DNA of 64,000 nucleotides, from the NCBI RefSeq assembly GCF_023149135.1, contig NZ_JAIWJX010000002.1, forward strand, positions 4,290,757 through 4,354,756, read 5' to 3'. The notes beneath the pieces were generated by a model. It saw only the letters and a program-made list of their open reading frames with translations. It did no database searches and had not been told where the DNA came from. The translations under genes and the position numbers were made by a program. Positions 18,353 through 35,640 of this stretch are shown here, piece by piece. Each line of letters opens with the position of its first letter. The stretch's first letter is position 1. The stretch comes from Fictibacillus marinisediminis. Its GTDB lineage: Bacteria > Bacillota > Bacilli > Bacillales > Fictibacillaceae.

Positions 18353-18383
18353 AAGAAGACCCGACAAAAGTCGGGTCTTCTTT
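18353..18383. terminator. Bidirectional terminator after the RlmN-like gene
   Basis: A perfect 13-bp stem AAGAAGACCCGAC/GTCGGGTCTTCTT with a 4-base loop. Confidence 0.85.
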
Positions 18384-18389
18384 ACAGCG

Positions 18390-19457: not shown

Positions 19458-19623
19458 TTTTTTACCCTCTTTTCAAAACATATAATGAACTGTCTCTGAA
19501 GACAGCATATTTTTTCGTAACCACCTGTTATCTTACCATAAAAAGTCTGGGTATTCAGCGGCGCTGTTTTGTCTTCTTTGGAACATTTTTACCATCCTTT
19601 ATCCTTCTTAATCTTGAAAAGCA

Positions 19624-19995: not shown

Positions 19996-20269
19996 TTGGG
20001 ATGGCGAGAACATGGCATTCTTTGAGTGCAGCGGCCTTCGTTTCATGCTCAGCCTGCCAGAGAATGAAACATTTGCCCATCCGAGTTCCGTCATCCATTT
20101 CCAAGTGACTCATATTAAGAGCGCTTATGAAGAAATGCTGAAAAAAGGTGCAGCGTTTGTAAGCGAACCTCACCTGACCGCTAAAATGGGACAAACCGAA
20201 ACATGGATGGCTTTCTTTAACGGTACAGAAGGACATACACATGCCTTGATGAGTGAGGCAGAGGTTTAA
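19996..20269 (+). pseudogene. VOC/glyoxalase-family protein, N-terminally truncated remnant
   Basis: The frame reads DWDGENMAFFECSGLRFMLSLPE and continues through SSVIHFQVTHIKSAYEEMLKKGAAFVSEPH to a normal stop. This is the second half of a vicinal oxygen chelate fold protein. The first beta-alpha-beta module is missing and is replaced upstream by AraC remnant sequence. A start at the ATG at 20012 would give an 85-residue product, but it lacks half of the fold and has no good ribosome binding site. A single deletion joining a regulator to its neighbouring VOC gene would explain both remnants. Confidence 0.6.
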
Positions 20270-20344
20270 AAAAGGAGAAGAAAGGATACTAGATCTGTGA
20301 AAGAATCATAAAAGCTATAAATTCAAAGGTTTAATAGAACGAAA

Positions 20345-20375
20345 AAAACCTCAGCAGACAATCTGCTGAGGTTTT
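20345..20375. terminator. Terminator of the gntP-bdhA unit
   Basis: A perfect 14-bp stem AAAACCTCAGCAGA/TCTGCTGAGGTTTT with a 3-base loop, 10 bases past the bdhA stop; it can act in both directions. Confidence 0.85.
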
Positions 20376-20385
20376 ACAATACAAA

Positions 20386-21162
20386 TTATTGTGCAGTATA
20401 GCCGCCATCCATAACGATGGCTTGTCCTGTAATACTTTTTGCCTTGTCGCTTGCAAGGAACATCGCGTAGTCAGCGATCTCACTTACTTCCAATAAACGT
20501 TTTTGCGGAACTAGCGGGTAGATGACTTCTTCAAGAACACTTTCCAAAGAAACGTTTCTTGTTTTCGCTAAATCTTCCATTTGGCCGCGTACGAGAGGCG
20601 TGTCAACATATCCTGGGCAAAGGGCATTTACTGTTACTCCGTGAGTAGCAGACTCTAATGCCGCAACCTTTGTTAGACCGATCACACCATGTTTTGCACT
20701 GTTGTATGCTGCTTTTCCAGCAAACCCAATAAGTCCGTTAATGGAAGCCACGTTGATAATGCGTCCGAACCCCTGCTCTTTCATGATTGGGAATGCATGT
20801 TTAATCGCGATGAATGGAGCAGTCAGCATGATTTTAATCATTAATTCGAATTTAGCAGTCGGGAACTCTTCGATAGGAGACACGTGCTGTAATCCTGCAT
20901 TGTTGATGAGCACATCTACACGGCCGTATTCTTTATGAGCAGCTTCGATCATATTCTTGATGTCTTCTTCACTTGTTACATCTGCTTTAAGTCCGATTGC
21001 TTCATATCCTAGGCCGTTAAGTTCTTCTGCTGCTTTTTTTACGCCTTCAGCATTCAAATCAGTAAGTACCACTTTACTGCCGTTTTCAGCAAACGTTTTT
21101 CCGATTTCAAACCCAATGCCACTTGCAGAACCTGTAATTACAACGACTTTATTTTCTACCAC
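20386..21162 (-). CDS. bdhA: 3-hydroxybutyrate dehydrogenase (SDR family)
   Basis: A short-chain dehydrogenase of 258 residues. Cofactor loop GSASGIGFEIG, NNAGLQHVSPIEEFP, catalytic serine in NVASINGL, and YNSAKHG with the Tyr-x3-Lys pair. NAGLQHVxPIExFP and PxGYVxTPLV are typical of D-3-hydroxybutyrate dehydrogenase, which oxidises 3-hydroxybutyrate to acetoacetate using NAD. It is 15 bases downstream of a GntP-type permease; the same pairing exists in B. subtilis (yxjC...yxjF) without the CoA-transferase genes found there. The pair would import and oxidise 3-hydroxybutyrate. Confidence 0.88.
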   Translation of the reverse strand: MVENKVVVITGSASGIGFEIGKTFAENGSKVVLTDLNAEGVKKAAEELNGLGYEAIGLKADVTSEEDIKNMIEAAHKEYGRVDVLINNAGLQHVSPIEEFPTAKFELMIKIMLTAPFIAIKHAFPIMKEQGFGRIINVASINGLIGFAGKAAYNSAKHGVIGLTKVAALESATHGVTVNALCPGYVDTPLVRGQMEDLAKTRNVSLESVLEEVIYPLVPQKRLLEVSEIADYAMFLASDKAKSITGQAIVMDGGYTAQ

Positions 21163-21177
21163 GTCAATCTCTCCTTT

Positions 21178-22464
21178 TTATATAATCCCTATACTTGCCA
21201 TAATGATGCCGACGATCACAGCGACAGTTGGAATGATTAATCCAACGACAAATACATCTTTGTAACAATCCTTGTGAGACAGCTTTGTTACCGCAAGGAG
21301 AGTCAGCAATGCTCCGTTATGAGGGAGTATTGAAGCACCCGATGCGACGGAAGCCATTCGGTGAAAAGCTTCAGGGCTGATCCCTGTCGACTGGGATAAA
21401 TCATAATACGTTTTTCCTAATGCCTGCAGCGCAATACCCATCCCGCCAGATGCAGAACCCGTAATCATAGCTAGAAGCTGAACGACTAATGATTCTGAAA
21501 CGAGTGGATTGCTTGAGATGCCTAACAGCATATCTGTAATGTGATCAAATTCGGGCACACTCGTTACAACAGCTCCAAATCCAACCGCAGCAGCCGTATT
21601 GATTATCGCCATAACCGATCCTTTTGCGCCTTCATTCATGGATGGAATAAAGGTTTTGTACCTCTTAATGTTGAGAAGAAGAATGACAATAATCCCAGCC
21701 AATAAAGAAGCAATCGGATTTAATTTAACGAAATCAAGTAATATGACAACTACCATAAGTGGAATCAAAGACAATAGCCAGTTTGGCAAATTTTCTGTTC
21801 CTTTTTCCTCATTTTCCTTATCGCCTTCTACTTCTTTAAACATGTCACCGGCTGCTGTCATTCGGTTTTCTCTAAACTTGAGCCAAAAATAGCCTCCAAC
21901 AGCCATGATCAGTGTCGTTACAATTCCAATCATTGAGCCCGCCATCGGAGTGGTTTTAAAGGTATTCATCGGAATTAAGTTTTGAATCTGGGGCGTTCCT
22001 GGAACGGCTGTCATCGTAAAAGTAAAAGCACCCAAAACGATCGTTGGCGCAATAAGCTTTCTGGAGATGTTCGCTTTTTTAAACAATGCAAGCGCAATCG
22101 GATAAATCGCGAACACAACAACGAATAAGCTCACTCCGCCATAAGTTAAAACGGCTGAAGCAACGAGCACACCTAAGATGGCACGTTTTTCACCGATATA
22201 CTTCGTAAACTGAAGAGCAACCGATTTGGCGGCTCCAGTATCCTCCATTAGTTTCCCTAGTACGGCACCTAATAAAAAGATCGGAAACCATTGCTTTGTA
22301 AAATTCACAAAGCCTGTCATATACGTATTGGTATAGGCGTCCAATAGGTTTAATCCGCTTAATAATGCCACAATTCCGGCAACAACGGGCGCAACCCAAA
22401 TGATCGACCAGCCCAGGTAGGCGAAAAACATAAGCAGTGCCAGCCCTATCAAAATACTAATCAA
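21178..22464 (-). CDS. GntP-family permease, probable hydroxybutyrate transporter
   Basis: A 428-residue integral membrane protein with about 12 hydrophobic segments and GntP/CitMHS-like landmarks (PAFTFTMTAVPGTPQIQNLIP-type block near residues 145-165, GSASGGMGIALQALG, SGASILPHNGALLTLL). Context with bdhA suggests uptake of 3-hydroxybutyrate or a related hydroxyacid. Upstream on the minus strand, TTGGGTGAAAGCACGCTT keeps the GG-N10-GC spacing of a sigma-54 promoter but fits the consensus poorly. A palindrome GTAAGC-TT-GCTTAC lies at 22546-22559, about 80 bases before the start, and could be an operator. Nothing else is seen in the 255-base gap before phnA. Confidence 0.8.
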   Translation of the reverse strand: MISILIGLALLMFFAYLGWSIIWVAPVVAGIVALLSGLNLLDAYTNTYMTGFVNFTKQWFPIFLLGAVLGKLMEDTGAAKSVALQFTKYIGEKRAILGVLVASAVLTYGGVSLFVVVFAIYPIALALFKKANISRKLIAPTIVLGAFTFTMTAVPGTPQIQNLIPMNTFKTTPMAGSMIGIVTTLIMAVGGYFWLKFRENRMTAAGDMFKEVEGDKENEEKGTENLPNWLLSLIPLMVVVILLDFVKLNPIASLLAGIIVILLLNIKRYKTFIPSMNEGAKGSVMAIINTAAAVGFGAVVTSVPEFDHITDMLLGISSNPLVSESLVVQLLAMITGSASGGMGIALQALGKTYYDLSQSTGISPEAFHRMASVASGASILPHNGALLTLLAVTKLSHKDCYKDVFVVGLIIPTVAVIVGIIMASIGII

Positions 22465-22674
22465 ACTTTTTCCCCCTTTTGTCTATAAGAAAGCGTGCTT
22501 TCACCCAAAAGCATCCTGTCTACTTGTGAATTTTTTATGAAAATTGTAAGCTTGCTTACCCGAAGAGGAATTTTACTCTTGAATGTTCAATATGTGAAAT
22601 ATATGAAAGTTATAGGTGTCATGCGAAAAAAGAATAGGTGAAAAGTTCTAGAAAACTTACATGAAAAGCAAATA

Positions 22675-22702
22675 AAAAACTCCAGCGCTAGTGCACTGGA
22701 GC
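22675..22702 (-). terminator. Terminator after the PhnA-like gene
   Basis: CTCCAG/CTGGAG stem followed by T6 on the minus strand, 18 bases beyond the stop. Confidence 0.75.
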
Positions 22703-22719
22703 TTCACTCCTTGAACGAT

Positions 22720-23064
22720 TTATATCTTCTTTACAAATTCAGATTTTAACTTCATGGCGCCAAAACCGTCAATTTTGCAATCAATATCGTGGTCACCCTC
22801 GACCAGACGGATGCTTTTAACTTTAGTTCCTATTTTTATAACAGAAGATGTTCCTTTCACTTTAAGGTCTTTAATGACGGATACTGAATCACCATCATTT
22901 AAGACATTTCCATTTGAATCTCTAACAACCTTAATATCTTCATTTAATTCAGCTTCGCTAGTCCACTCATGAGCACATTCCGGACAAACAAAAAGGCTGC
23001 CATCCTCGTAGGTATACTCTGAGCTGCATTTTGGGCAGTTAGGCAATTTAGACAAGACAATCAT
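22720..23064 (-). CDS. PhnA/YjdM-family zinc-ribbon protein
   Basis: A 114-residue protein with an N-terminal zinc ribbon (CPKCSSEY...CPECAHEW) and a small C-terminal beta domain ([24 protein letters not shown]...[13 protein letters not shown]). This is the PhnA/YjdM family, once linked to alkylphosphonate use but with no proven enzymatic role. The ATG at 23064 is very close to its GGAG. A TTG three codons later has better spacing, so the exact start is uncertain. It lies between gntP and the sigma-54 activator gene with its own terminator. Confidence 0.85.
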
Positions 23065-23116
23065 TTCTCCATTCGTTTTTGTTCATTTTACCATATAAAA
23101 TTTTTTTGAATTTGTT

Positions 23117-24823
23117 TCAATTGATCCCTCTGTTGATCTCCCTATCCCACTTTTTCATTTTTTTCACAAGTGTCGAGTGATCGACTCCTAAATATTCTGC
23201 TGCCTTTCTGATGGAGGGTTTCTTGTGAAGCGCATCCATAATCACTCTTTTTTCAAACTGTCCCATTCTTTGTTTGAAAGTATGAACAGACTCTGAGTTA
23301 CCATGAATACTAAAGTGCGGCGGCAGATCAACCGGTTCAATAGTAAGTGATGGCACCGAAACAATCATGCTCTCCACTAAATTCCTTAATTCTCTCACAT
23401 TCCCCGGCCAATGATAGCTTTGTAAAATTTGTTTGGTTTCGGGTGATACATGCTTTTCGATATTAAATAGTTTACAGAAATAGGTAAAAAAATGATCCAG
23501 TAAGACTTCGATGTCCTCAGGACGCTGGCTCAATGGAGGAATAGCTATTTCTATCACTTGCAGCCGGTAATATAAGTCTTCTCGAAATTTTCCTTTTTCC
23601 ACTAACTCTTTCAAATGTTTATTTGTTGCTGAAATGATTCTAATGTCTAGTTGCTTTACTTTGCTGCTGCCTAATTTTTGAATTTGTTTCTCTTGCAGGA
23701 CACGAAGCAACTTGACTTGCAAAGACAATGGAAGTTCCCCTACTTCATCCAGCAAAACTGTCCCCTTGTCCGCCAGTTCCAGCAGACCGACTTTTCCTTC
23801 CTGCCTTGCTCCGGTAAACGCCCCTTTTTCATAACCAAAAAGCTCAGATTCCAGCAGCTGTTCAGGGATAGCCCCGCAGTTCACTTTAATAAAAGGCATA
23901 TCTTTTCTGTCACTTAATTGGTGAACTAAATTAGCAATAACCTCTTTACCCGCTCCTGAAGGACCAGATAGCAATATACTTGTTGGGTATGAAGCGATTT
24001 GTTTTACTTTTTCTATAATTCCCTTCATTTGAATGCTTTGAAAGACTACCTTTTCATCATTTCCCTCCGTGGAAAAGGTATATCGATTCTGACTCATTTC
24101 AGAAAAGCTTTTTGCCTTCTTCAACTCATTTGTCAGTTCATTTAGCTGAGTAATGTCTCTGACACTGGTTACAACCATTTGAATCTCGCCTGATTCATTG
24201 AAAACGGGAGTTCCCGTGACCATGACATCTTTTTGCTGGCCGATTCGCTGAAGAATCGATCTGCGTTTTTTATCCTGCAGGACAAGGAGTGAGACAGATT
24301 GATCAAAGTAGCCGTGGTTCATCAAATCGCCCATGTGATGACCGATAAGTCTTTCCCTCTTGATTCCTGACATAGCCTCGTAAGCTGAATTCACAATGAG
24401 TGTAATTCCTTCACTATTAACGACATAAATGCCATCCGTAGAAAATTCGATGATTTTTTCCATTTGCTTGAGTAATGAACGATAATGTTCGATTTGAGAA
24501 ATATCCTGTATAACACTCACAGCACCAATGAGCTGATTTTCCTTATATAAGGGAGTTTTATTCACCATACATTGCAACCCTGCTATCGTCATTTTCGCTC
24601 CGAGTGTGCTCTTGCCACTATTAAGAACCTGATGGATTTGTGAATTAGGAACAAAATCACGGATATCTTTGCCCACTAAGTCCTGGTGTTCTTGTTTTAT
24701 TAGTTTTTGTGCTGAGGAATTTATGAATAGAATCCTATTATTATGGTCCACGACAATGACCCCGTTGGACATCGAGGAGAAAACGCTTTCTAAAATTTCT
24801 TTGTTCACAGTAAGTGGTTTCAT
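23117..24823 (-). CDS. Sigma-54-dependent transcriptional activator with two PAS domains
   Basis: A 568-residue enhancer-binding protein. PAS domain 1 is at about 10-115 and PAS 2 at about 120-240. The AAA+ domain (about 265-490) has Walker A GPSGAGKE, the sigma-54 contact loop GAFTGA, Walker B TVLLDEVGELP and the arginine region RFREDLYYRLQV. A short TyrR-like HTH ends the protein (SIRKAAEYLGVDHSTLVKKMKKW). It has no receiver domain, so a small molecule sensed by PAS probably controls it. The start is ATG 24823 after AGGAGG. It is divergent from the dehydrogenase-lactonase operon, whose promoter is of the sigma-54 type, and three matching palindromes lie between them, two just upstream of this gene. 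Confidence 0.93.
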   Translation of the reverse strand: MKPLTVNKEILESVFSSMSNGVIVVDHNNRILFINSSAQKLIKQEHQDLVGKDIRDFVPNSQIHQVLNSGKSTLGAKMTIAGLQCMVNKTPLYKENQLIGAVSVIQDISQIEHYRSLLKQMEKIIEFSTDGIYVVNSEGITLIVNSAYEAMSGIKRERLIGHHMGDLMNHGYFDQSVSLLVLQDKKRRSILQRIGQQKDVMVTGTPVFNESGEIQMVVTSVRDITQLNELTNELKKAKSFSEMSQNRYTFSTEGNDEKVVFQSIQMKGIIEKVKQIASYPTSILLSGPSGAGKEVIANLVHQLSDRKDMPFIKVNCGAIPEQLLESELFGYEKGAFTGARQEGKVGLLELADKGTVLLDEVGELPLSLQVKLLRVLQEKQIQKLGSSKVKQLDIRIISATNKHLKELVEKGKFREDLYYRLQVIEIAIPPLSQRPEDIEVLLDHFFTYFCKLFNIEKHVSPETKQILQSYHWPGNVRELRNLVESMIVSVPSLTIEPVDLPPHFSIHGNSESVHTFKQRMGQFEKRVIMDALHKKPSIRKAAEYLGVDHSTLVKKMKKWDREINRGIN

Positions 24824-24849
24824 CGGAATCTCTGCCTCCTGCAAGAAGC

Positions 24850-24940
24850 GGTGAAAATTATCACCAAACGGTGACGATTTTCACCGTCTTTAGTCTTTGT
24901 TACACCAACAATTCTTTTTATTATGGTGAATTTTATCACC
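24850..24940. promoter_or_regulatory. Three GGTGA-N6-TCACC palindromes: upstream activator sites
   Basis: GGTGAAAATTATCACC (24850-24865), GGTGACGATTTTCACC (24870-24885) and GGTGAATTTTATCACC (24925-24940; extended to TTAT...ATAA on both sides). Sites one and two are exactly 20 bases apart centre to centre and site three is 55 bases further. They lie 55-145 bases upstream of the -24 element of the operon, as expected for an enhancer. The nearest is 27 bases from the activator start codon, suggesting autoregulation. Binding by that activator is inferred. Confidence 0.8.
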
Positions 24941-24992
24941 ATAATTTGCTTTAGACAATGTAAATTCTTATATAAAATAAGCATTTTTACTA

Positions 24993-25010
24993 TTGGCATG
25001 AATCTTGCAT
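24993..25010 (+). promoter_or_regulatory. Sigma-54 (-24/-12) promoter of the ALDH-lactonase-ADH operon
   Basis: TTGGCATGAATCTTGCAT has GG at 24995-24996 and GC at 25007-25008, separated by exactly 10 bases, and differs little from the TTGGCAC-N5-TTGCA consensus. It ends 24 bases before the ATG of the first gene. Confidence 0.85.
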
Positions 25011-25034
25011 TATAAAAAGGCAAGGAGGTTGAGA

Positions 25035-26462
25035 ATGGAAATTAAAGAGTTATTCATTAATGGGAAATGGGAATCAAAAGAAAGAACCTATGCACTGCAC
25101 TCTCCTTATAGCGGGGATGTGATTGCTAACATTAGTATGGCAGATGAGGCAGATGTAAAAAAAGCCATTGAAGGAGCAAAAACAGCCTATGAAACGATGA
25201 AAGTGATGCCTGCCTATAAGCGCTCAGAGATTTTGCTGAATGTTGTCCAACTCCTCCGTGAAAGAAAGGAAGAGTTGGCACGAATTGTTGCACTTGAGGC
25301 CGGTAAGCCCATTCGGACAGCACGTGGCGAAATTGACCGCACCATCGCTACCTATCAATTTGCAGCGGAAGAGGCAAAACGGATCTATGGAGAAACCATT
25401 CCAATGGATGCCGCTCCTGGAGGTGAGAATCGTCTAGGATTTACATGGAGAGAACCATTAGGTGTTGTCGTTGCAATCAGCCCCTTTAATTTTCCGGTTA
25501 ATCTCGTCGCGCATAAACTAGGACCAGCCTTTGCTGCGGGAAATACAGTTGTATTGAAACCGGCTGAACAAACACCTTTAAGCGCGTTATTAATCGCTGA
25601 GATCTTCAAGCAAGCCGGCCTTCCGGATGGAGCTCTTCAAGTGATAACAGGCAGCGGAAGAGAGCTTAGTGACGCTCTTATTACTGATGAAAGAGTTAAA
25701 AAAGTAACCTTCACAGGGAGTGCAGAAGTAGGTAAACTGATTAAATCAAAAGCCGGGTTGAGGAAAGTAACATTAGAACTTGGTTCCAATTCAGGGTTAA
25801 TTGTTGAACCGGATGCCCCGCTGGAAAAAATTGTGCCCCGATGTGTAGAGGGAGCCTTTTCCTTTGCAGGCCAAGTTTGTATTTCACTGCAAAGAATTTA
25901 TGTTCATGATTCCATTTATAATGATTTTTGTAAGCGTTTTATTGAACAGACAAAAAAATTAACAGCCGGCGATCCTCTCGACGAAAAAACCGATATTAGT
26001 GCCATGATTAACCTTAAGGAAACAGAGCGAATTGAGTCGTGGGTCCAGGAAGCTAATGAGCAGGGAGCTGACATTGCACTAGGCGGAAAACGCGACGGCT
26101 CGGTCTTCCCGCCAACCGTACTATTAAATGTTAAAAAAGATATGGCGGTTTCCTGCCAAGAAACATTTGCTCCTGTTGTCTCAATCGTTCCCTACCATGA
26201 GCTGGATGAAGCCATCCATATGGTCAATGATTCTTCGTATGGATTAAATGTGGCTATCTATACCCAAAACATCCTTCATGCAATACATGCGGCCAAAAAG
26301 CTGGAGTCAGGCGGAGTCATTATTAATGATATCCCAACCTTTAGGCTGGATCATATGCCTTATGGCGGAGTAAAGGACAGCGGCTATGGACGTGAAGGAA
26401 TTAAATATGCCGTTGAAGAAATGACAGAATTAAAATTCGTTACCATAAAAACAGCATTTTAA
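25035..26462 (+). CDS. NAD(P)-dependent aldehyde dehydrogenase (succinate-semialdehyde or lactaldehyde type)
   Basis: A 475-residue ALDH-superfamily enzyme. It shows SPFNFPVNLVAHKLGPAFAA, the cofactor loop FTGSAEVGK, the general base glutamate in LELGSNSGL, the catalytic cysteine in FAGQVCISLQR, and the C-terminal PYGGVKDSGYGREG. The glycine in the usual ELGGK motif is replaced (ELGSN), as in several lactaldehyde and succinate-semialdehyde members. The start is the ATG after AAGGAGGTTGAGA. It is the first gene of a three-gene sigma-54 operon. By analogy with blcA/attK it could oxidise succinate semialdehyde to succinate; the substrate is inferred from context. Confidence 0.85.
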   Translation: MEIKELFINGKWESKERTYALHSPYSGDVIANISMADEADVKKAIEGAKTAYETMKVMPAYKRSEILLNVVQLLRERKEELARIVALEAGKPIRTARGEIDRTIATYQFAAEEAKRIYGETIPMDAAPGGENRLGFTWREPLGVVVAISPFNFPVNLVAHKLGPAFAAGNTVVLKPAEQTPLSALLIAEIFKQAGLPDGALQVITGSGRELSDALITDERVKKVTFTGSAEVGKLIKSKAGLRKVTLELGSNSGLIVEPDAPLEKIVPRCVEGAFSFAGQVCISLQRIYVHDSIYNDFCKRFIEQTKKLTAGDPLDEKTDISAMINLKETERIESWVQEANEQGADIALGGKRDGSVFPPTVLLNVKKDMAVSCQETFAPVVSIVPYHELDEAIHMVNDSSYGLNVAIYTQNILHAIHAAKKLESGGVIINDIPTFRLDHMPYGGVKDSGYGREGIKYAVEEMTELKFVTIKTAF

Positions 26463-26476
26463 GGAGGAGAAGTACT

Positions 26477-27325
26477 TTGGCAAATATTATTAAACCTAAC
26501 CCAAAGCTTTATGTAATGGATAATGGCCGTATGAGAATGGATAAAAACTGGATGATTGCGATGCACAGTCCAGCAACAGTGGAGAATCCCAATACACCAA
26601 CTGAGTTTGTCGAGTTCCCTGTCTATACTGTACTCATCGACCATCCAGCAGGTAAAATTCTTTTTGATACTGCTTGCAATCCTAACTCAATGGGGCCTGA
26701 AGGCCGGTGGGGGAAAGCAACACAGCAAATGTTTCCAATCAATATGGGAGAGGAATGTTATCTTCATAACCGCCTGGAGGAGCTAGATGTAAGACCCGAA
26801 GATATTAAATACGTAATAGCATCCCACCTTCACCTTGACCACGCTGGGTGCTTGGAGTTATTTACAAATGCGACAATCATCGTTCATGAAGATGAGCTGA
26901 ACGGTGCCCTTCAAACGTATGCCCGCAATGAAAAAGAAGGAGCATACATCTGGGGAGATATTGATGCCTGGATAAAAAATAATCTTCAATGGAAAACCAT
27001 AAAACGAAGTGAAGACAATCTTGAATTAGCAGAAGGAATTAATATCCTTAATTTTGGAAGCGGACATGCCTGGGGTATGCTTGGCCTTCAGATTAACATG
27101 CCAGAAACAGGCGGGATTATTCTCGCCTCAGATGCTATTTATACAGCTGAAAGCTTCGGACCGCCGATCAAGCCGCCTGGCATTATCTATGATTCACTGG
27201 GCTATTCCAACGCAGTTGAGAAAATACGCAGAATCGCGAAGCAAACTGGTTCCCAAGTCTGGTTTGGACACGATGCTGACCAATTTAAAACATTCCGCAA
27301 ATCTACTGAAGGATATTACGAATAA
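26477..27325 (+). CDS. AHL-lactonase-like metallo-beta-lactamase-fold hydrolase
   Basis: A 282-residue member of the AiiA/AttM branch of the metallo-beta-lactamase fold. The dinuclear zinc site is complete: His117-x-His119-x-Asp121-His122 (HLHLDHAG), His197 (GSGHAWG), Asp219 (ASDAIY) and His265 (FGHDAD). No signal peptide. Family members open the lactone ring of N-acyl homoserine lactones or gamma-butyrolactone. Translation starts at TTG, 7 bases after GGAGGAGAAG. It lies 14 bases after the ALDH and 18 bases before the Fe-ADH, so the trio is one operon, and it resembles blcC of Agrobacterium. Which lactone it takes is not visible. Confidence 0.88.
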   Translation: MANIIKPNPKLYVMDNGRMRMDKNWMIAMHSPATVENPNTPTEFVEFPVYTVLIDHPAGKILFDTACNPNSMGPEGRWGKATQQMFPINMGEECYLHNRLEELDVRPEDIKYVIASHLHLDHAGCLELFTNATIIVHEDELNGALQTYARNEKEGAYIWGDIDAWIKNNLQWKTIKRSEDNLELAEGINILNFGSGHAWGMLGLQINMPETGGIILASDAIYTAESFGPPIKPPGIIYDSLGYSNAVEKIRRIAKQTGSQVWFGHDADQFKTFRKSTEGYYE

Positions 27326-27343
27326 AATAGAGGGGGAAAAACA

Positions 27344-28525
27344 ATGAGTGTCGCAAAGTTAGTTTTCACCCCATTAAGCTACACAGGATGGGGATCACTG
27401 AAGGAATTGCTTCCTGAAGTTGCGAAGTATGCGCCAAAGAGAATTCTTGTTATCACAGATCCAATGCTGGCCAAGATAGGAATCGCTCAACGCGTAACAG
27501 AACCGCTTGAAGAACAGGGCTATTCTGTCACTTTATACACGGACGTCGTTCCTGAACCTCCTGTAGAAACAGGAGAAAAGCTGGTTTCCTTTACCCGTGA
27601 AGGAGAATTTGACATGGTCGTCGGTGTAGGCGGCGGAAGCGCACTCGATTTGGCCAAATTAGCTTCAGTATTGGCTGTGCATGATGGTTCTGCAGCTGAT
27701 TACTTAAACTTATCCGGCTCTAAAAATGTAGAAAAAAAAGGGTTGCCTAAAATCCTCATTCCGACTACATCCGGAACCGGTTCAGAAGTGACAAATATCT
27801 CTGTCCTCTCCTTAGAGACCACAAAAGACGTGGTGACACACGATTATCTTCTCGCGGATGTAGCCATTATTGATCCGGAGCTGACCGTATCGGTTCCCGC
27901 CAAAGTAACGGCAGCTACGGGAATTGATGCTTTAACCCATGCAGTGGAAGCCTATATTTCAGTGAATGCAAGCCCTGCCACTGATGGCTTAGCCCTGCAG
28001 GCGATCCGCTTAATAGGACGATCCCTTCGGAAGGCCGTTACAGATGGAAATAACCGGCAAGCAAGAATTGATATGAGCAATGGGAGTTATATCGCAGGCC
28101 TTGCATTCTTTAACGCGGGAGTAGCCGGAGTTCATGCCTTGGCTTACCCGCTTGGCGGGCAATTTCACATTTCCCACGGTGAATCGAACGCCGTCCTTCT
28201 TCCCTATGTAATGGGTTATATTCGGAAAAGCTGCACAAAGCGTATGGCGGACATCTTAAATGCCCTGGGTGGAAATTCTGCCTACTTATCCGAAGAAGAA
28301 GCTTCCTATAAATGTGTAGAAGAACTCCAGAGGCTTGTGAGTGATGTTGGAATTCCAGCTGCTTTATCTGGCTTCAATGTACCGGTTTCAGCCCTGGAGA
28401 GCTTAACACAGGATGGAGTAAAGCAAAAAAGAATCCTGGCCAGAAGTCCTCTTCCTTTATTAGAAGATGATATTAGGAAAATATATCAAGTCGCCTTTAA
28501 TGGAACGATCGTAGAGCCAACTTAA
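27344..28525 (+). CDS. Iron-containing alcohol dehydrogenase (group III), candidate 4-hydroxybutyrate dehydrogenase
   Basis: A 393-residue iron-dependent alcohol dehydrogenase. The nucleotide-binding motif GVGGGSALDLAKL and PTTSGTGSEVT, the metal region ATGIDALTHAVEAYIS with DGLALQAIRL, and the histidines in GVHALAYPLGGQFHISHGESNA are all present. The last gene of the sigma-54 operon, 18 bases after the lactonase and preceded by AGAGGGGG. In Agrobacterium an Fe-ADH (BlcB/AttL) oxidises 4-hydroxybutyrate to succinate semialdehyde beside the same two partners. 1,3-Propanediol or lactaldehyde activity is an alternative. Confidence 0.87.
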   Translation: MSVAKLVFTPLSYTGWGSLKELLPEVAKYAPKRILVITDPMLAKIGIAQRVTEPLEEQGYSVTLYTDVVPEPPVETGEKLVSFTREGEFDMVVGVGGGSALDLAKLASVLAVHDGSAADYLNLSGSKNVEKKGLPKILIPTTSGTGSEVTNISVLSLETTKDVVTHDYLLADVAIIDPELTVSVPAKVTAATGIDALTHAVEAYISVNASPATDGLALQAIRLIGRSLRKAVTDGNNRQARIDMSNGSYIAGLAFFNAGVAGVHALAYPLGGQFHISHGESNAVLLPYVMGYIRKSCTKRMADILNALGGNSAYLSEEEASYKCVEELQRLVSDVGIPAALSGFNVPVSALESLTQDGVKQKRILARSPLPLLEDDIRKIYQVAFNGTIVEPT

Positions 28526-28567
28526 TTAATAAAATATGTAAAGGGGCTGTCCAAGAAGTCTGTAAGC

Positions 28568-28715
28568 TGTTGATTTCCGTTCCAGGCTGCTCGCTTTCCG
28601 CGGGGCGTGCGGTGAGCCTCTTGGTGCAAGCACCGGCGGGAGTCTCACCTGTCACGCTAGTCCCGCAGGAGTCTCGCATCTTCCACTTCAATTAACTTTT
28701 CATTGAAGATTTTTC
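28568..28715 (+). repeat. Dispersed GC-rich repeat, copy C (short, shortened 5' edge)
   Basis: Family 1, forward orientation. It has GTTGATTTCCG, CTCGCTTTCCGCGGGGCG, GTCTCACCTGTC and CCGCAGGAGTCTCGC but lacks the GTAACCTTTGTTGC edge and the 60-bp module. It sits between the alcohol dehydrogenase stop and its terminator, and a copy of the terminator arm (AAAGGGGCTGTCC, 28540-28552) lies before it. Confidence 0.85.
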
Positions 28716-28720
28716 AAGCC

Positions 28721-28773
28721 AAAAAGGGGCTGCCTGAAGGTCAATTTTCGACTTTCTGGACAGCCCCTTTTTC
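28721..28773 (+). terminator. Long-stem terminator of the sigma-54 operon
   Basis: AAAGGGGCTGCC-TGAAGGTC/GACTTTC-TGG-CAGCCCCTTTTT folds as one long hairpin with a U-rich end. It is displaced about 200 bases from the stop by the repeat. Confidence 0.75.
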
Positions 28774-28794
28774 ATTTTCTTTTCATGTCAGCAG

Positions 28795-28872
28795 ATTATT
28801 TTAGCGGATGAACCTACAGCAAGCGAAGTAAAATCCAGAAATAATGCGGATTCTTACTTAGTCAATCATTAA
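28795..28872 (+). pseudogene. Possible relic of an ABC transporter ATPase
   Basis: A short open stretch reads IILADEPTASEVKSRNN...VNH and stops. LADEPTA is the Walker B/D-loop sequence of ABC exporter ATPases such as MacB/LolD. Nothing of the rest of the domain remains. It could be a chance match. The remainder of the 28526-29006 gap is AT-rich and holds nothing I recognise except an MFS gene leader. Confidence 0.3.
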
Positions 28873-29006
28873 TTACTTGTATCTAAAATGACAAAAATAG
28901 TTTTTAATAAATTAGGGAGATCCAAGAAAAAATTTTTATGGTATGATAGTTAGATTGTTTACCAGCTATGTGACACATTTACATTCATCTAAGAAAAGAG
29001 GCAGTT

Positions 29007-30215
29007 ATGCACGCCGCAAAATTATCCAAGCGACATTGGTTACTCATCTTTACACTTACTTTATTAACATTTGTTCTCGGGACAAGCGAATTTGTTATCG
29101 TTGGAATCTTAACCGATATTTCCTCGAGTCTTCATATCACAAATGCAAAAGCAGGCACACTCGTGTCTGCATTTGCGATTACATTTGCCATTGCCACACC
29201 AATCGTAATGTCAGCCACAAGCCATTTTCCAAAGCGTAAATGGATGTTGTTTTTGATAGGATCGTTCATTGTCCTGAATGCTTTGTGCGTGATTTCGACG
29301 AGCTACATCATGCTCCTTGCACTTCGAATGATGACGGCGGTTGTAACAGGAGTTTTAATCTCTCTTGCTATGATCGTTGCAAGTGAAACCATGCCGATCG
29401 CAAAACGCGGACTTGCTATATCCTTCGTTTTCGGTGGTTTTACTCTTGCAAACGTCATTGGAGTACCGATAGGCACTGTCATTGCTGAATGGTATAACTG
29501 GAATGCAACCTTCCTGTTTACGACTCTTCTGGGGGGAATTTCATTTTTTGCATCTTTCTTCATTTTGCCTAAAATGCACAGTCAAATTCGCAGCTCGATG
29601 CGTGATCAATTTTCTTTATTGACACACCCGCGAATCTTAATGGCTTTTTTCATTCCATCACTTGGATTTGGAGCGACGTATGCCATTTATACGTATCTGG
29701 TCCCGATCCTGAAGGGAATGGAAGCACCACGCAGTTCAATCAGTTTGATCTTGTTTGGCTACGGATTTATTTCGATTTTCAGCAACATACTCGCTGGTAA
29801 AATTGCCAGCTATAATGCTATCGGACGCCTTCGGTTTGTTTTCTTTTTGCAGGCCTTGGTTCTGATCAGTTTATATTGGACGACAAATCATTTTATCTTT
29901 GGATTGGTCAACATTGGCTTTATGTCATTAATGGCCATCCTTTTAACCACCTCTACCCAGCTTTATTTGATAGACCTTGCTGGTATTTATCAGCCAAAAG
30001 CAACAGGACTCGCTGCTTCCCTTATGCCTGTGGCAAGCAATGTTGGTATTGCCTTTGGTTCCGCATTAGGCGGATTTGTTTACCATCAAGGAAACTTGAT
30101 GAATGTGACATGGGTCGGGGGGCTGGTTGCTATCTTTGCAAGTCTTCTAACTTTCCTAAGTCACCGCTTAGACCAAAAACAAAAAACCAGCATAACGGAA
30201 AAGCTAATTAGTTAA
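29007..30215 (+). CDS. MFS transporter, DHA1 type (AraJ/YdhP-like)
   Basis: A 402-residue major facilitator with 12 predicted membrane segments. Start features: LGTSEFVIVGILTDIS in helix one, which is typical of the AraJ/YdhP/Sugar efflux branch of DHA1 drug or sugar exporters. The conserved loop 2-3 motif is weak (TSHFPKRKW). It follows an AAAAGAGG site. It is a single unit bounded by the operon terminator upstream and its own terminator. The substrate is unknown. Confidence 0.82.
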   Translation: MHAAKLSKRHWLLIFTLTLLTFVLGTSEFVIVGILTDISSSLHITNAKAGTLVSAFAITFAIATPIVMSATSHFPKRKWMLFLIGSFIVLNALCVISTSYIMLLALRMMTAVVTGVLISLAMIVASETMPIAKRGLAISFVFGGFTLANVIGVPIGTVIAEWYNWNATFLFTTLLGGISFFASFFILPKMHSQIRSSMRDQFSLLTHPRILMAFFIPSLGFGATYAIYTYLVPILKGMEAPRSSISLILFGYGFISIFSNILAGKIASYNAIGRLRFVFFLQALVLISLYWTTNHFIFGLVNIGFMSLMAILLTTSTQLYLIDLAGIYQPKATGLAASLMPVASNVGIAFGSALGGFVYHQGNLMNVTWVGGLVAIFASLLTFLSHRLDQKQKTSITEKLIS

Positions 30216-30233
30216 TCCTTCAATTAAAATTAA

Positions 30234-30284
30234 AAAAAGAAGTATCAAGAACGCAGCGTTGTTCTTTGATACTTCTTTTTTATA
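30234..30284. terminator. Terminator of the MFS gene
   Basis: A long stem AAAGAAGTATCAA/TTGATACTTCTTT with A and T tails; probably works for both strands. Confidence 0.85.
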
Positions 30285-30329
30285 TATTGACTATGTGCTT
30301 ACCTCAAAAAAAATAATGAACAATTATAA

Positions 30330-30809
30330 TTACTTATGGTACGGTTCTCCACGATTAATCCGGAATGCCCGATAAATCTGCTCCACCAGTACGAGCTTCA
30401 TTAACTGATGCGGATATGTGATCCGGCCGAACGAAATCTTCTCATTCGCCCGTTTCATGACTTCATCACTAAGCCCCAGTGATCCTCCGATAACAAATGC
30501 CACTTTGCTTTTCCCGTAGGTCGCCAGCTGGTCCAAGTTTTTGGCTAAATCTTCTGAAGAGATCAGCTTTCCCTCAATCGCCATGGCAACAACATGAGCA
30601 TCCTGTGGGATTTTCGCCAGGATTCGCTCACCTTCTGCCTTTTTCACAATCTGCATTTCCTGATCACTCAAGGTTTCAGGCGCTTTTTCGTCCGCTACCT
30701 CGATAATTTCTATTTTGGCATATGGCCCGAGCCGCTTTACGTATTCATCAATTCCCATTTTTAAATACTTTTCTTTCAGTTTGCCAACGGTTACTACTAA
30801 GATATTCAC
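30330..30809 (-). CDS. rlmH: 23S rRNA (pseudouridine1915-N3)-methyltransferase RlmH
   Basis: A 159-residue SPOUT methyltransferase that methylates pseudouridine 1915 in helix 69 of 23S rRNA. It shows the N-terminal [17 protein letters not shown], the SAM-binding knot [13 protein letters not shown] and the C-terminal [33 protein letters not shown]. The C-terminal Tyr-His-Lys is invariant. The start codon is GTG with AAAAGGAG 9 bases upstream. It corresponds to yydA at the same place near oriC in B. subtilis and is followed by no operon partner. Confidence 0.95.
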
Positions 30810-30835
30810 AGGGGAAAACTCCTTTTATAAACAAC

Positions 30836-31080
30836 TTATCCACAAAAGTTATCCACATATACACAAAATCTATCCACATTTAGTATAGGATCACTCGTTC
30901 GATACTTTATATATGGCCTTTTTTTCGCAATACGTACATGTTGTTGATAACTTTTCTGTTTCTGTTAATAACTCCAGATTCGGATAGATTTCCAATTCAT
31001 CAACGATCTCATCGATCCCGATATCCACATGTTCATCACAGCAAAATTTTTTCAACGTCATTCTCCTTTATTTATCCACA
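30836..31080. other. DnaA-box cluster at rlmH/yyzF
   Basis: TTATCCACA at 30836-30844 and 30849-30857, CTATCCACA at 30870-30878 and TTATCCACA at 31072-31080, with an ATATCCACA at 31021-31029. B. subtilis has a DnaA-box cluster at the same gene (yydA), which titrates DnaA and dampens over-initiation. Confidence 0.7.
30891..31055 (-). CDS. yyzF: YyzF-like CxxH/CxxC small protein
   Basis: A 54-residue protein, MKKFCCDEHVDIGIDE...STTCTYCEKKAIYKVSNE. It has a CxxH motif (CDEH) at the N terminus and a CxxC (CTYC) near the C terminus, probably binding one zinc ion. This is the CxxH/CxxC protein family found next to htrA in Bacillus. The TTG at 31055 has AAAGGAG at 7 bases. An ATG two codons upstream directly abuts that site and is less likely. 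The function is unknown. Confidence 0.8.
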   Translation of the reverse strand: MKKFCCDEHVDIGIDEIVDELEIYPNLELLTETEKLSTTCTYCEKKAIYKVSNE

Positions 31081-31230
31081 TGATGATCTCTTCGTATTTT
31101 AACACAAATCAGTGTCTCACTATTCTGCTTCCGGGTAAATCAATAGACCGTTACTTGCGGTTCGACATGATTTACTTGGCCATTCACACCATTTTCATCA
31201 TCTCAAACTCCTGCCGCTCCAATAAACACA

Positions 31231-31259
31231 AAAAAATCAGGAGATTTCTCTCCTGATTT
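31231..31259 (-). terminator. Terminator of the walR-htrA operon
   Basis: AAATCAGGAGA/TCTCCTGATTT hairpin with T7 on the minus strand, 3 bases beyond the htrA stop. Confidence 0.85.
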
Positions 31260-31261
31260 CC

Positions 31262-32470
31262 TTATGAAGACTTCTGAAGACCCAGTTTAATGGTCGTGAT
31301 TTTCTTTTTGCCTTTGCTGTAGTACGTAATTTTCATCTTATCGTCTACTTCTTTTTTCGTATACAGATATTTGCGAAGCTCAAGTGGAGAGCCGATCTTC
31401 TTGTCATCGAGTGCGACAATAACATCCATCTCTTTGATCCCTGCCCGGTCAGCTGGTGATAATGGATCAACATCCATAACCACGACACCTGATTTAACAC
31501 TTGGCGGCAGCTTTAACGTCGTTTGACGGTGATAGCTGCTGACTTGTGATAATGGGATAGGGCCAACACCCAGGAATGGGCGTTTAACTTCGCCGTAACG
31601 CTCAAGGTCCGCGATAATCGGCTTAGCTGTATCAGAAGGGATGGCGAATCCAATTCCTTCTACTTCCTGCTGTGCAATTTTACTGGAGTTAATGCCGATT
31701 ACCTGGCCGCCGATATTCAGAAGGGCGCCTCCGCTGTTACCAGGGTTGATCGCCGCATCCGTTTGGATGACTTCTGCTTGCCAGTCCGGATTGCCGTCCT
31801 CATCGCTGTCAACTGGCATGGTTCGGTCAGCACTGGAGACAACCCCCTCTGTTACAGAGCCTGGAAATGTTCCGAGCGGGTTACCGATTGCAATGGCCGG
31901 CTCACCCGGTTTCAGTGAGCTGGATGACCCAAATTGAGCCACTTTTTTCACCCTGCTGCCGTCGATTTCAACTACCGCCAGATCCATCAGCGGGTCCGTA
32001 CCGCGCAGTGTGCCCTTCAGCTTCGTGCCATTACTTAGTGTAATCTCAAGGCGGCTGGCACCTTTTACGACGTGATTGTTCGTCACGATATAGGCTTTTC
32101 CGCCTTCTTTTTTATAGATCACACCTGATCCTGAACCGGCAGCCTGCTGGCCTTGGTTCCAGAACTCACCTTGCTGGATGTTCAGCACTTCGACAACTGC
32201 ATCCCGTGCCTTACTGACAGCATCAGTGACGTTGGTCGTGACGTTCACATTCACGTTTTTGTTGATCCCGTTTTGCTCATTAACGCCGGCATTATCTTCA
32301 TTGCTTGAATAGTTATCAGGCAGAAGCCCCATGCCTCCAAGGGCAGGAATTGAAAATAATATGAGCAGGCCGCCTAATATAGCGCCTACTAGAGCGGCCA
32401 GCAAAAATCCGCCTCGGTTTCCTTTTTGCTTTCTTGGACTAGATTCATAATCGTCATCATAATAGCCCAT
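31262..32470 (-). CDS. htrA: HtrA-family membrane-anchored serine protease
   Basis: A protein of about 402 residues: acidic cytoplasmic N terminus (GYYDDDYESS), one transmembrane helix at about 20-42, trypsin-like domain with the triad His (VTNNHVV), Asp (MDLAVVE) and Ser (NPGNSGGALL), and a C-terminal PDZ domain (GVVVMDVDPLSPADRAGIKEMDVI). It degrades misfolded envelope proteins and is the yyxA-type HtrA that closes the walRK operon in Bacillus. The start is uncertain: ATG 32470 has no well-spaced site. A GTG four codons upstream is close to AAAGGA, and TTG codons lie further up. Confidence 0.93.
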   Translation of the reverse strand: MGYYDDDYESSPRKQKGNRGGFLLAALVGAILGGLLILFSIPALGGMGLLPDNYSSNEDNAGVNEQNGINKNVNVNVTTNVTDAVSKARDAVVEVLNIQQGEFWNQGQQAAGSGSGVIYKKEGGKAYIVTNNHVVKGASRLEITLSNGTKLKGTLRGTDPLMDLAVVEIDGSRVKKVAQFGSSSSLKPGEPAIAIGNPLGTFPGSVTEGVVSSADRTMPVDSDEDGNPDWQAEVIQTDAAINPGNSGGALLNIGGQVIGINSSKIAQQEVEGIGFAIPSDTAKPIIADLERYGEVKRPFLGVGPIPLSQVSSYHRQTTLKLPPSVKSGVVVMDVDPLSPADRAGIKEMDVIVALDDKKIGSPLELRKYLYTKKEVDDKMKITYYSKGKKKITTIKLGLQKSS

Positions 32471-32631
32471 TCCCTGCTTCACCGTTCCTTTCAACAATAA
32501 AATGAATGCTGTAATGATTTTTTATTTATTATAAAAAATCAAATCCCTAACTTAAAAAATATGGGTTATTTTTCACACTTTTCCACATTTATTGTTATTT
32601 CCTTAAACGGTGTCCCTTAAACAGAGAGCAG

Positions 32632-33429
32632 TTAAACAAGCACCAAGTCAGTCGGCTGGGCTGCATCCGTATGATAAAGCTGCAGATCTTCACCGATCAC
32701 AAACCCTTTGTTTTCAAGGGTCTGTTTTACAGCAAGATGAGCAATATCTTTCATATTGTTGTCTTTGCTCAGATGGGCGAGGTAGATTCGTCTCGTCTGG
32801 TCGCCTATCAGATCTGCAAGAGCAAACCCGCAGTCTTCATTGGAAATATGGCCGTGATCGCCAAGGATCCTTCGTTTGATGTTCCAAGGATAGCGCCCCA
32901 TCATCAGCATATTGATATCATGGTTCGATTCGATCACAAACGCATCGCTGTGCTTTGTGATTCCTTTCATCCGGTCACTGACATAGCCGGTATCCGTCAT
33001 AAGCGTCAGCTTTTTTCCTTCATGATGGAAGACATAAAACATCGGCTCGGCCGCATCATGGGAAACACCAAAGGACTCAACCTCCAGATCACCGAATGTG
33101 CGGACCGTTTCCATTTCAAAATCAAATTTCTGTTCCGTATCCACTTCACCGATCAGCCCGTTCATCGCTTTCCATGTTTTTGCGTTGGCATAGACTGGCA
33201 GTTTATACTTTCGTGCCAAAACTCCGAGTCCTTTTATATGATCGCTATGTTCATGGGTTACGAGAATACCGTCCAGCTGATCCAGTTCACAGCAGTTTGC
33301 TTTTTCAAATAAGAGTTTCATCTGCTTTGCGCTAAGGCCGGCATCAACAAGCAGGCGCGCATTCCCCGTTTCCACGTAAATCGCGTTTCCGGTACTGCCG
33401 CTTGCCAGCACGCTGAATTGCAAACTCAT
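32632..33429 (-). CDS. walJ: WalJ (YycJ) metallo-beta-lactamase-fold hydrolase
   Basis: A 265-residue metallo-beta-lactamase-fold protein, metal site His59-x-His61-x-Asp63-His64 ([10 protein letters not shown]) with further ligands in [20 protein letters not shown] and ESNHD. In low-GC Gram positives it is always in the walRK operon and has been linked to coordination of cell wall metabolism with replication. It may act as a 5'-3' nuclease. Starts [16 protein letters not shown], 13 bases after yycI. The stretch 32471-32631 between it and htrA is AT-rich and may carry an extra htrA promoter. Confidence 0.92.
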
Positions 33430-33442
33430 TGTTCAATCCTCT

Positions 33443-34243
33443 CTATTGTTCTCTGTCAATCTCCTGAATGGAGCTGTCTGTTGCGTTCACAAGAAAATGA
33501 GCATCCTCCGTTTCGATAGACCACGTTGGCGCATATACCTGCACATCCTCCACATTTGCCAGACTATAATAACCGAGAACAATCTTATTAATTTTGTCAC
33601 CGCTTGAAAGGTGCTGGGTATTAAACAAGCTACCTAATGCTTTCATAGGCGAAATAATTTCCTGCGGCGTACCCTGTCTGTACACAGAAATAAAAGTTTG
33701 TGTATAGCGGGTGAGAAAACCCTTTTCATTCCATTCGAACATCACCATTCCGCTCGGGCGGTTCGTATCATCATCCGTATCAAAGAAAAGTGGTTGTCCT
33801 TGATAGATTTGTGTAAACCAAATCTTATGGTTCTTCGTGTCTTTTTTATAGAATCGGTATTCATCGCCCCGGTAGACGTCATCTTTCAGAAATTGAGAAA
33901 CATCTTTGACAAGGTCGTTCTTATCCAGCTCCAGCGGCTTTTTTAAGTTAAAAATGAGCGTCGTATCTGTACTGCTGCTGTCCAGCTTACTCGTTTTTGA
34001 TTTAATCTCGTTCGCTGAAAAAGGAGCCCGCTGACCGCTAATCAGGGTTTGATGGTCCTTATAGCTCTGCGGAAGACTATCTTTGTAATCAATATTGTTG
34101 TCCGCCAGCCTTTTTTCAAGAGGCTGCTCAGACAGGTACTTGAGATTGCTCTTGTCCATTTTCTGCGAGAGCTGGTACCCGAGAAAGATATTCAGAATCA
34201 GGAACGTCAGAATAAAAATCGTCTTAGTTTTTTTCCAATCCAT
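33443..34243 (-). CDS. yycI: YycI, negative regulator of WalK
   Basis: A 266-residue bitopic protein with a single N-terminal transmembrane helix (about 7-24, TIFILTFLILNIFLGYQL) and a large extracytoplasmic domain. Together with YycH it holds WalK in check in B. subtilis through contacts within the membrane. Its ATG overlaps the last base of the yycH stop codon (TAATG), so the two are made in equal amounts. Sequence similarity in this family is low, and identification rests strongly on order. Confidence 0.88.
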   Translation of the reverse strand: MDWKKTKTIFILTFLILNIFLGYQLSQKMDKSNLKYLSEQPLEKRLADNNIDYKDSLPQSYKDHQTLISGQRAPFSANEIKSKTSKLDSSSTDTTLIFNLKKPLELDKNDLVKDVSQFLKDDVYRGDEYRFYKKDTKNHKIWFTQIYQGQPLFFDTDDDTNRPSGMVMFEWNEKGFLTRYTQTFISVYRQGTPQEIISPMKALGSLFNTQHLSSGDKINKIVLGYYSLANVEDVQVYAPTWSIETEDAHFLVNATDSSIQEIDREQ

Positions 34244-35637: not shown

Positions 35638-35640
35638 CTT

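Follow-up and report, generated by a model that had tools for sequence, protein, structure and literature searches.

Three closely packed genes of Fictibacillus marinisediminis, encoding an aldehyde dehydrogenase (ALDH), a metallo-lactonase and an iron-containing alcohol dehydrogenase (iron ADH), are best read as an operon for the assimilation of lactones, with gamma-butyrolactone as the likeliest substrate. We give this reading as a whole a probability of about 0.62. The general route, from a lactone to a hydroxy acid, a semialdehyde and finally a dicarboxylate, is very probable; that gamma-butyrolactone and 4-hydroxybutyrate in particular are the compounds handled is something we infer, and regard as reasonably probable. 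The key support for the pathway is that related operons keep the lactonase and swap in a zinc ADH or succinate-semialdehyde dehydrogenases (SSADHs) of the GabD/BlcA type. The features discussed here lie in a window of 64,000 nucleotides, i.e. the whole stretch of DNA that was analysed:

23117-24844, minus strand: divergent PAS-PAS-AAA+-HTH sigma-54 activator (Pfam: two PAS, Sigma54_activat, HTH)
24850-24865, plus strand: inverted repeat GGTGA-N6-TCACC, distal, probable activator site (pattern scan, conservation)
24870-24885, plus strand: inverted repeat GGTGA-N6-TCACC, middle, probable activator site (pattern scan, conservation)
24925-24940, plus strand: inverted repeat GGTGA-N6-TCACC, proximal, probable activator site (pattern scan, conserved spacing)
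24993-25009, plus strand: sigma-54-type -24/-12 promoter, TTGGCATGAATCTTGCA (pattern scan, conservation)
25035-26462, plus strand: ALDH, probably for an anionic aldehyde (Pfam Aldedh; Arg102, Arg437)
26477-27325, plus strand: AhlS/GcL-family metallo-lactonase, TTG start (Pfam Lactamase_B)
27344-28525, plus strand: iron ADH (Pfam Fe-ADH and ADH_Fe_C)

A first-pass annotation of this DNA had picked out the three genes as tightly spaced. The open reading frames are indeed there, Pfam agrees with their naming, and the gaps are 14 bp (ALDH/lactonase) and 18 bp (lactonase/ADH). We place the start of the ALDH at the ATG at 25035, which is preceded by AAGGAGG; the listed frame begins at an upstream TTG (25005). 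An Rfam scan of positions 18000-36000 in the window returned no match.

A predicted sigma-54 circuit

Control by sigma-54 and a PAS-AAA+ activator had also been proposed, and the prediction has held up well. The activator sequence contains the GAFTGA loop and the host genome encodes RpoN. The exact pattern YTGGCAY-N5-TTGCW has a single match in the 64 kb window, at 24993-25009, and the exact repeat GGTGA-N6-TCACC has three, starting at 24850, 24870 and 24925, all between the activator and the operon; the proximal repeat begins 68 bp ahead of the -24/-12 match. When one mismatch is allowed, the promoter pattern has five matches in the window (as many in 23/100 shuffles) and the repeat three (as many in 11/100 shuffles). 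These raw counts are not rare, therefore the case for the promoter and the repeats rests on their placement and conservation.

Conservation was assessed across lactonase loci, 80 of which were kept out of 107 confirmed. An activator orthologue (>50% identity) adjoins the lactonase in 36 of the 80. The promoter, with at most one mismatch, is found in all 36 of these loci versus 1/44 without the activator, and the repeat in 34/36 versus 1/44. The spacing between repeat and promoter is 66-69 bp in 26 of the 36 activator loci, 25 by script and one, L026, by hand; L026, which carries an ALDH remnant, was placed by hand among the activator loci for all three counts. Of 1600 upstream stretches with their bases shuffled, 11 attain the promoter score. 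A composite pattern of repeat plus promoter matches 13 sites in 12/398 genomes (our own genome included) and its reversed control matches none; ten of the 13 sites lie at this operon and one at a lactonase fragment. The conservation of the operon with its activator extends to other Bacillales. In two loci (L133 and L134) repeat and promoter stand beside a 43-44%-identical activator and a gene that, named from its sequence alone, is acyl-CoA dehydrogenase-like, which indicates that the repeat is common to a wider activator group.

There is little sign of a larger regulon in the host. Its genome holds four more single repeats, the same number as the reversed-pattern control, and no second cluster. 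We also considered control of the neighbouring 3-hydroxybutyrate dehydrogenase and GntP permease genes by the same activator, but a scan that tolerated one mismatch gave no repeat at these genes. At the related locus L002 the 3-hydroxybutyrate dehydrogenase beside the operon is present in part only, with no permease.

Judged by sequence, the marks of an operon controlled by sigma-54 and an enhancer-binding activator are all present, namely a -24/-12 promoter, upstream repeats, an adjacent AAA+ activator and rpoN in the genome. We propose that the activator senses the lactone or its hydroxy acid, binds the GGTGA-N6-TCACC repeats and would drive RNA polymerase-sigma-54 at 24993-25009. The activator comes with a defined set of candidate sites for binding.

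Exchange of dehydrogenases around the lactonase

An ADH lies directly downstream of the lactonase in 59 of the 80 loci (52 iron, 7 zinc), the zinc enzyme occupying the place of the iron ADH in those seven; in the other 21 there is none, one of these (L051) being a contig end. An ALDH adjoins in 42 loci, of the window type and upstream in 31, and of the GabD type and downstream in 11, while 38 have no adjoining ALDH. The GabD-type enzymes sit after the ADH, not in the slot of the window ALDH. Eight of the 11 were put in a tree, where they occupy two separate places within the GabD clade (support 100/96). Identity to BlcA is 54-55% for the ALDHs of L038, L060 and L074; with the SSADH model (cut-off 646.35) they reach 682.6, 636.3 and 639.9 bits, one passing the cut-off and two narrowly missing it. 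GabD-type enzymes can also serve C5 semialdehydes. Outside blc, four more distant lactonase loci were considered. Two of these (Natronococcus and Deinococcus) adjoin a hydroxyacid-oxoacid transhydrogenase, a member of a 4-hydroxybutyrate-oxidising family; the AiiB and Rhizobium phaseoli loci have neither ADH nor ALDH alongside.

This pattern of exchange bears on the idea that lactaldehyde or propanediol is what the ADH and ALDH act on, with the lactonase as a passenger. The first-pass annotation had named a grouping with such enzymes as evidence against its pathway, and profile scores and trees disagree on the matter. The best NCBIfam models are lactaldehyde dehydrogenase for the window ALDH (570.6 bits) and lactaldehyde reductase for the iron ADH (302.3 bits), both below their cut-offs (650 and 523.15). 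In the trees, however, the ALDH lies away from E. coli AldA, and the ADH, in an iron-ADH tree with long branches, does not group with FucO and YiaY, which form a supported pair; it is just 32% identical to FucO. As the lactonase also stays the same across related loci while the ADHs and ALDHs next to it can come from other families, we consider this idea extremely improbable.

Does the lactonase primarily destroy the N-acyl homoserine lactones (AHLs) of neighbouring bacteria, with the ADH and ALDH merely detoxifying or salvaging by-products? Passages of the literature describe efficient AHL hydrolysis by the close homologues GcL and AaL (for AaL, PMC6062542). In addition, an HxlR-type gene stands beside a lone lactonase in 11/80 loci, and an aspartate kinase beside the lactonase in nine more, five of them without an ADH. 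Set against this, an ADH is tightly clustered with the lactonase in 59/80 loci and a dedicated activator is present in 36/80. The HxlR-linked lone lactonases, moreover, look derived, because they nest among the Paenibacillus lactonases of the operon type, with moderate support (91/94 and 86/93) from a bootstrap that had not converged. A primary role in quorum quenching is distinctly unlikely in our view; AHL quenching may be something that the lactone-assimilation operon does on the side, or a second purpose that it serves.

The frequency of the downstream ADH among the sampled loci suggests that much of the AhlS/GcL family in Bacillales serves lactone catabolism, some lone lactonases being perhaps derived. 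GcL, AaL and AhlS are enzymes researched for quorum quenching, and what they ordinarily do may be to supply nutrients and not to block signals. Their native substrate becomes a testable question, with likely inducers indicated.

The enzymes and the likely substrate

The dizinc site of the lactonase is complete, with His117, His119, Asp121, His122, His197, Asp219 and His265 all as first annotated. The AiiA/AttM-type label has not stood: the protein scores 556.3 bits against the AhlS equivalog NF047976 (curated cut-off 475), with a full HXHXDH site, and we rejected the AttM (139.1 bits, cut-off 390) and AiiA (106.5 bits, cut-off 375) families. AaL (entry 6cgy) matches it at 557.5 bits. By analogy with GcL and AaL, whose activity is described in the literature, the lactonase would open the lactone ring and may also hydrolyse AHLs.

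The reported kcat/KM values of AaL are 1.4e5 per M per s for gamma-butyrolactone, 4.5e5 (about threefold higher) for delta-valerolactone and 1.3e6 (about tenfold higher) for C4-AHL (PMC6062542). Hydrolysis of gamma-butyrolactone by so close a homologue supports the preferred reading. The preference for delta-valerolactone, together with the position of the window ALDH outside the GabD clade, fits the same three steps acting on another primary-alcohol lactone, chiefly delta-valerolactone (giving glutarate by way of 5-hydroxyvalerate) or a butyrolactone substituted at the alpha position. This is rather unlikely, given that succinate semialdehyde is the best, if not the exclusive, fit for the GabD/BlcA-type ALDHs of related operons. 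The preference for C4-AHL raises a further possibility, namely full assimilation of AHLs under a signal-sensing sigma-54 activator, in which ADH and ALDH would convert N-acylhomoserine to N-acyl-aspartate semialdehyde and N-acyl-aspartate. If true, the signals of other bacteria would be both silenced and eaten. In Planococcus and Planomicrobium the lactonase does adjoin aspartate kinase and homoserine dehydrogenase genes (9/80 loci), but the GabD-type ALDHs of related operons argue otherwise, and we judge this very improbable. Overall, the ALDH's place in the tree and the quality of AHLs as substrates of these lactonases are points against gamma-butyrolactone.

The window ALDH scores 405.2 bits against the SSADH model (cut-off 646.35). 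Of three columns compared in an alignment with GabD, two do not have the GabD residue, an Arg and a Ser. Arg102 and Arg437 of the window enzyme are kept in 31/31 window-type operon ALDHs. The same residues occur in the lactaldehyde dehydrogenase 3pqa, in ALDHs that we take to be from Burkholderia, and in three proteins of our own genome (L099, L102, L107). We therefore ruled them out as strong evidence for succinate semialdehyde; they are at most a pointer to an anionic aldehyde, on which the enzyme probably acts. They also align with arginines of moss ALDH21, a succinate-semialdehyde dehydrogenase (PMC7823795). The host encodes three further BlcA-like ALDHs (49-58%), one of which (L097) has an in-frame TGA. 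In the iron ADH, Asp195, His199, His264 and His278, presumably the iron ligands, are in place by motif. The published passages searched held no assayed ADH or ALDH from this operon.

Family, gene order and the exchanged homologues suggest that the ADH oxidises an omega-hydroxy acid to a semialdehyde and that the ALDH takes this to a dicarboxylate. The likeliest route would run from gamma-butyrolactone through 4-hydroxybutyrate and succinate semialdehyde to succinate. Of the initial proposal that gamma-butyrolactone or an AHL is converted to succinate, a catabolic lactonase-ADH-ALDH operon is thus probable, with gamma-butyrolactone as its inferred substrate.

Comparison with known systems

The GcL gene itself (L027 of P. 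caldoxylosilyticus, 282/282 identical; 570.1 bits to the AhlS model, above cut-off like the window lactonase) resembles the window in having an activator orthologue, an iron ADH and a -24/-12 site, here with a single mismatch; unlike the window it has no adjoining ALDH. GcL, AaL and AhlS are treated as single enzymes in PMC6062542, PMC11423328 and PMC7193897: the word 'operon' is absent from the first two and refers to Pseudomonas genes in the third. The operon had been thought undescribed in Bacilli. Part of the neighbourhood has in fact been published for Priestia megaterium in 2025, with a sigma-54-interacting regulator upstream and an iron ADH downstream of the aiiB lactonase (PMC12501872). 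That report discusses the locus in terms of AHL degradation being gained or lost, and its main text mentions neither an ALDH nor a pathway ('aldehyde', 'catabol-' and 'pathway' are absent). AiiB of pTiC58 (L084) is 42% identical to the window lactonase, scores 306.9 bits against the AhlS model (below the cut-off of 475) and, unlike the window, adjoins ABC transporter and acyl-CoA dehydrogenase genes; published passages describe it as agrocinopine-induced.

The closest functional parallel is Agrobacterium blcABC (attKLM; L082), likewise an operon of ALDH, iron ADH and metallo-lactonase beside a divergent regulator, and reported to convert gamma-butyrolactone to succinate (PMC5924552, PMC4086400). 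As first noted, gene order and regulatory logic differ: ALDH-ADH-lactonase under the IclR-family BlcR in blcABC, and ALDH-lactonase-ADH under an unrelated sigma-54 activator here. The suggestion of a counterpart holds for the kind of chemistry and fails for kinship as a unit. Identities are 35% (BlcA), 40% (BlcB, in a long-branched tree) and 31% (BlcC), the lactonase belongs to another family and the ALDH lies outside the GabD/BlcA clade. Simple orthology is ruled out by these identities and trees. The operon works like blcABC, yet is not a member of it, and offers another, differently assembled case of the same logic outside the Proteobacteria.

Operon layout and the sigma-54 circuit

The three operon genes are separated by gaps of 14 bp (ALDH/lactonase) and 18 bp (lactonase/iron ADH). 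The relevant features of the window are:

23117-24844, divergent from the three-gene operon: PAS-PAS-AAA+-HTH activator
25035-26462, co-directional with lactonase and iron ADH: ALDH
26477-27325, co-directional with ALDH and iron ADH: lactonase
27344-28525, co-directional with ALDH and lactonase: iron ADH

The sole exact match to YTGGCAY-N5-TTGCW in the 64-kb window sits between activator and ALDH, as do its only three GGTGA-N6-TCACC inverted repeats. With one mismatch allowed, 23 of 100 shuffles reached the observed promoter count and 11 of 100 the repeat count. Neither count is rare by itself, and the argument for a sigma-54 circuit is built on the placement and conservation of these elements, not on window counts. 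RpoN is encoded in the same genome. Among named relatives, Fictibacillus sp. FJAT-27399 comes nearest, with a lactonase at 99%.

A lactonase-based scan of GTDB species genomes confirmed 107 loci, of which the best 80 were kept. An activator, counted if adjacent and more than 50% identical to that of the window, is present in 36 of the 80. All 36 have an upstream -24/-12 site that deviates at no more than one position (28 are exact), versus 1 of the 44 other loci, and the repeat is present in 34 of 36 versus 1 of 44; for both counts the upstream region of the Anoxybacillus locus L026, where an ALDH remnant precedes the lactonase, was assigned by hand. The exception carrying a promoter site is L079, where the adjacency and identity rule detects no activator. 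Base-shuffled upstream stretches held an equally good site in 11 of 1600 cases. Where an activator is present, the proximal repeat begins 66-69 bp ahead of the promoter site in 26 of 36 loci. This conservation supports the control by sigma-54 and a PAS-AAA+ activator proposed in the first-pass annotation. In 8 of these 36 loci the adjacent ALDH is missing or not intact.

Repeat and promoter at the operon spacing occur at 13 sites in 12 of 398 genomes of the class (this one included), versus none for a reversed control pattern in the same genomes. Ten sites stand at this operon with its activator; at three of the ten, activator and ALDH are all that the 3-kb stretch covers, and at one the lactonase is only partly matched. 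One lies at a lactonase fragment. The other two (L133, L134) adjoin a 43-44%-identical activator and precede a gene resembling acyl-CoA dehydrogenase; they may mark a further operon type of this activator group.

Just past the operon, at 28540-28775, is a 236-bp interspersed repeat element with apparent inverted-repeat ends and no Rfam match. The genome holds at least 54 places matching it (40 of 109 candidates scored), among them at least 11 near full-length copies, itself included, at 92-100%. Near the activator gene, at 20386-22464, lie genes for a GntP-family permease and for a dehydrogenase that exceeds the NCBIfam cut-off as 3-hydroxybutyrate dehydrogenase; in two Fictibacillus loci (L009, L011) the same pair is divergent to a second lactonase-ADH locus type without activator.

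The lactonase and its other settings

The lactonase had been taken for an AiiA/AttM type. It passes neither the AttM nor the AiiA model, and reaches 556.3 bits against the AhlS equivalog model (cut-off 475). Its top PDB match is GcL (570.7 bits), and the next beyond GcL and its likely variants is AaL (entry 6cgy, 557.5 bits). According to excerpts of the respective papers, GcL hydrolyses C4- and 3-oxo-C12-HSL (PMC7193897), and AaL acts on C4-AHL, delta-valerolactone and gamma-butyrolactone at 1.3e6, 4.5e5 and 1.4e5 per M per s (PMC6062542). GcL itself, also above the AhlS cut-off, is encoded at the P. caldoxylosilyticus locus L027 (282/282 residues identical), with activator and promoter before its gene, an iron ADH after it and no adjacent ALDH.

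Reduced loci may be derived, since in Paenibacillaceae the HxlR-linked lactonases that stand alone branch from within the operon type (moderate support of 91/94 and 86/93, bootstrap not settled) and L026 of Anoxybacillus caldiproteolyticus keeps an ALDH remnant (6678-6974, 57% over residues 363-470) directly before its lactonase. Four loci of more distant lactonases were inspected besides blc: in Natronococcus and Deinococcus a hydroxyacid-oxoacid transhydrogenase adjoins the lactonase, and at the AiiB and Rhizobium phaseoli loci neither ADH nor ALDH was found beside it.

In nine Planococcus/Planomicrobium loci (L021, L022, L024, L025, L029, L033, L034, L049, L052) an aspartate kinase gene precedes the lactonase and is transcribed divergently from a homoserine dehydrogenase gene; an iron ADH accompanies the lactonase in 4 of 9. 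Plasmid pB of Peribacillus sp. R9-11 (L083), typed as non-mobilizable, carries the complete activator-ALDH-lactonase-iron ADH set with a 93.6%-identical lactonase, which hints at horizontal spread.

Exchange of the dehydrogenases

Among the best 80 of the 107 loci, with ADH and ALDH types assigned from the best tblastn match, an iron ADH directly follows the lactonase in 52, a zinc ADH in 7 and no ADH in 21 (one of these, L051, stops at a contig end). A window-type ALDH lies upstream in 31 and a GabD-type ALDH downstream in 11, and 38 have none. The neighbouring regulator or context is a sigma-54 activator in 36, a LacI-type regulator in 11, an HxlR-type in 11 (both labels from a Pfam check on one member each), aspartate kinase in 9, and none or other in 13.

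Identity to BlcA is 54-55% for the GabD-type ALDHs of L038, L060 and L074 and 35% for the window ALDH. Against the SSADH model (cut-off 646.35) these three score 682.6, 636.3 and 639.9 bits, compared with 405.2 for the window ALDH and 737.3 for BlcA itself. A tree with eight of the eleven GabD-type operon ALDHs (L016, L075 and L079 left out) puts them at two separate positions within the GabD/BlcA clade (100/96); window-type ALDHs form a separate clade with a paralogue from the same genome, L107 (99/100). As the ADH and ALDH families vary around a constant lactonase, the loci are best explained by one pathway that turns a lactone into a dicarboxylate. Succinate semialdehyde is the intermediate to which the GabD-type enzymes of related loci point. 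We infer the activator's ligand, repeat binding and all steps beyond ring opening.

The window ALDH itself lacks two of the three aligned GabD residues checked, which have a carboxylate role. It keeps two arginines common to moss ALDH21, a succinate-semialdehyde dehydrogenase (PMC7823795, in excerpt); both also occur in lactaldehyde dehydrogenase. Fifteen places in the genome match BlcA, the window ALDH included, and three others do so at about 50-58% (one with an in-frame TGA). Given these further BlcA-like genes, SSADH activity is probably present outside the operon as well.

Comparison with known systems

The first-pass annotation knew of no description of such a unit in Bacilli. For the operon as a lactone pathway, we found none in the open-access search results and the excerpts read. 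The neighbourhood of regulator, lactonase and iron ADH is already in print for P. megaterium (PMC12501872, excerpts), in a main text where the words 'aldehyde' and 'pathway' are absent.

The proposed likeness to blcABC probably holds for the chemistry. In Agrobacterium, blcABC converts gamma-butyrolactone to succinate (excerpts of PMC5924552 and PMC4086400), as proposed here. However, its genes (L082) stand in another order and under another regulator, its lactonase is of another family and its ALDH of another clade: the window lactonase is AhlS-type and the window ALDH falls outside the GabD/BlcA clade. The operon probably works like blcABC but is not a member of it. The iron-ADH tree does not place BlcB.
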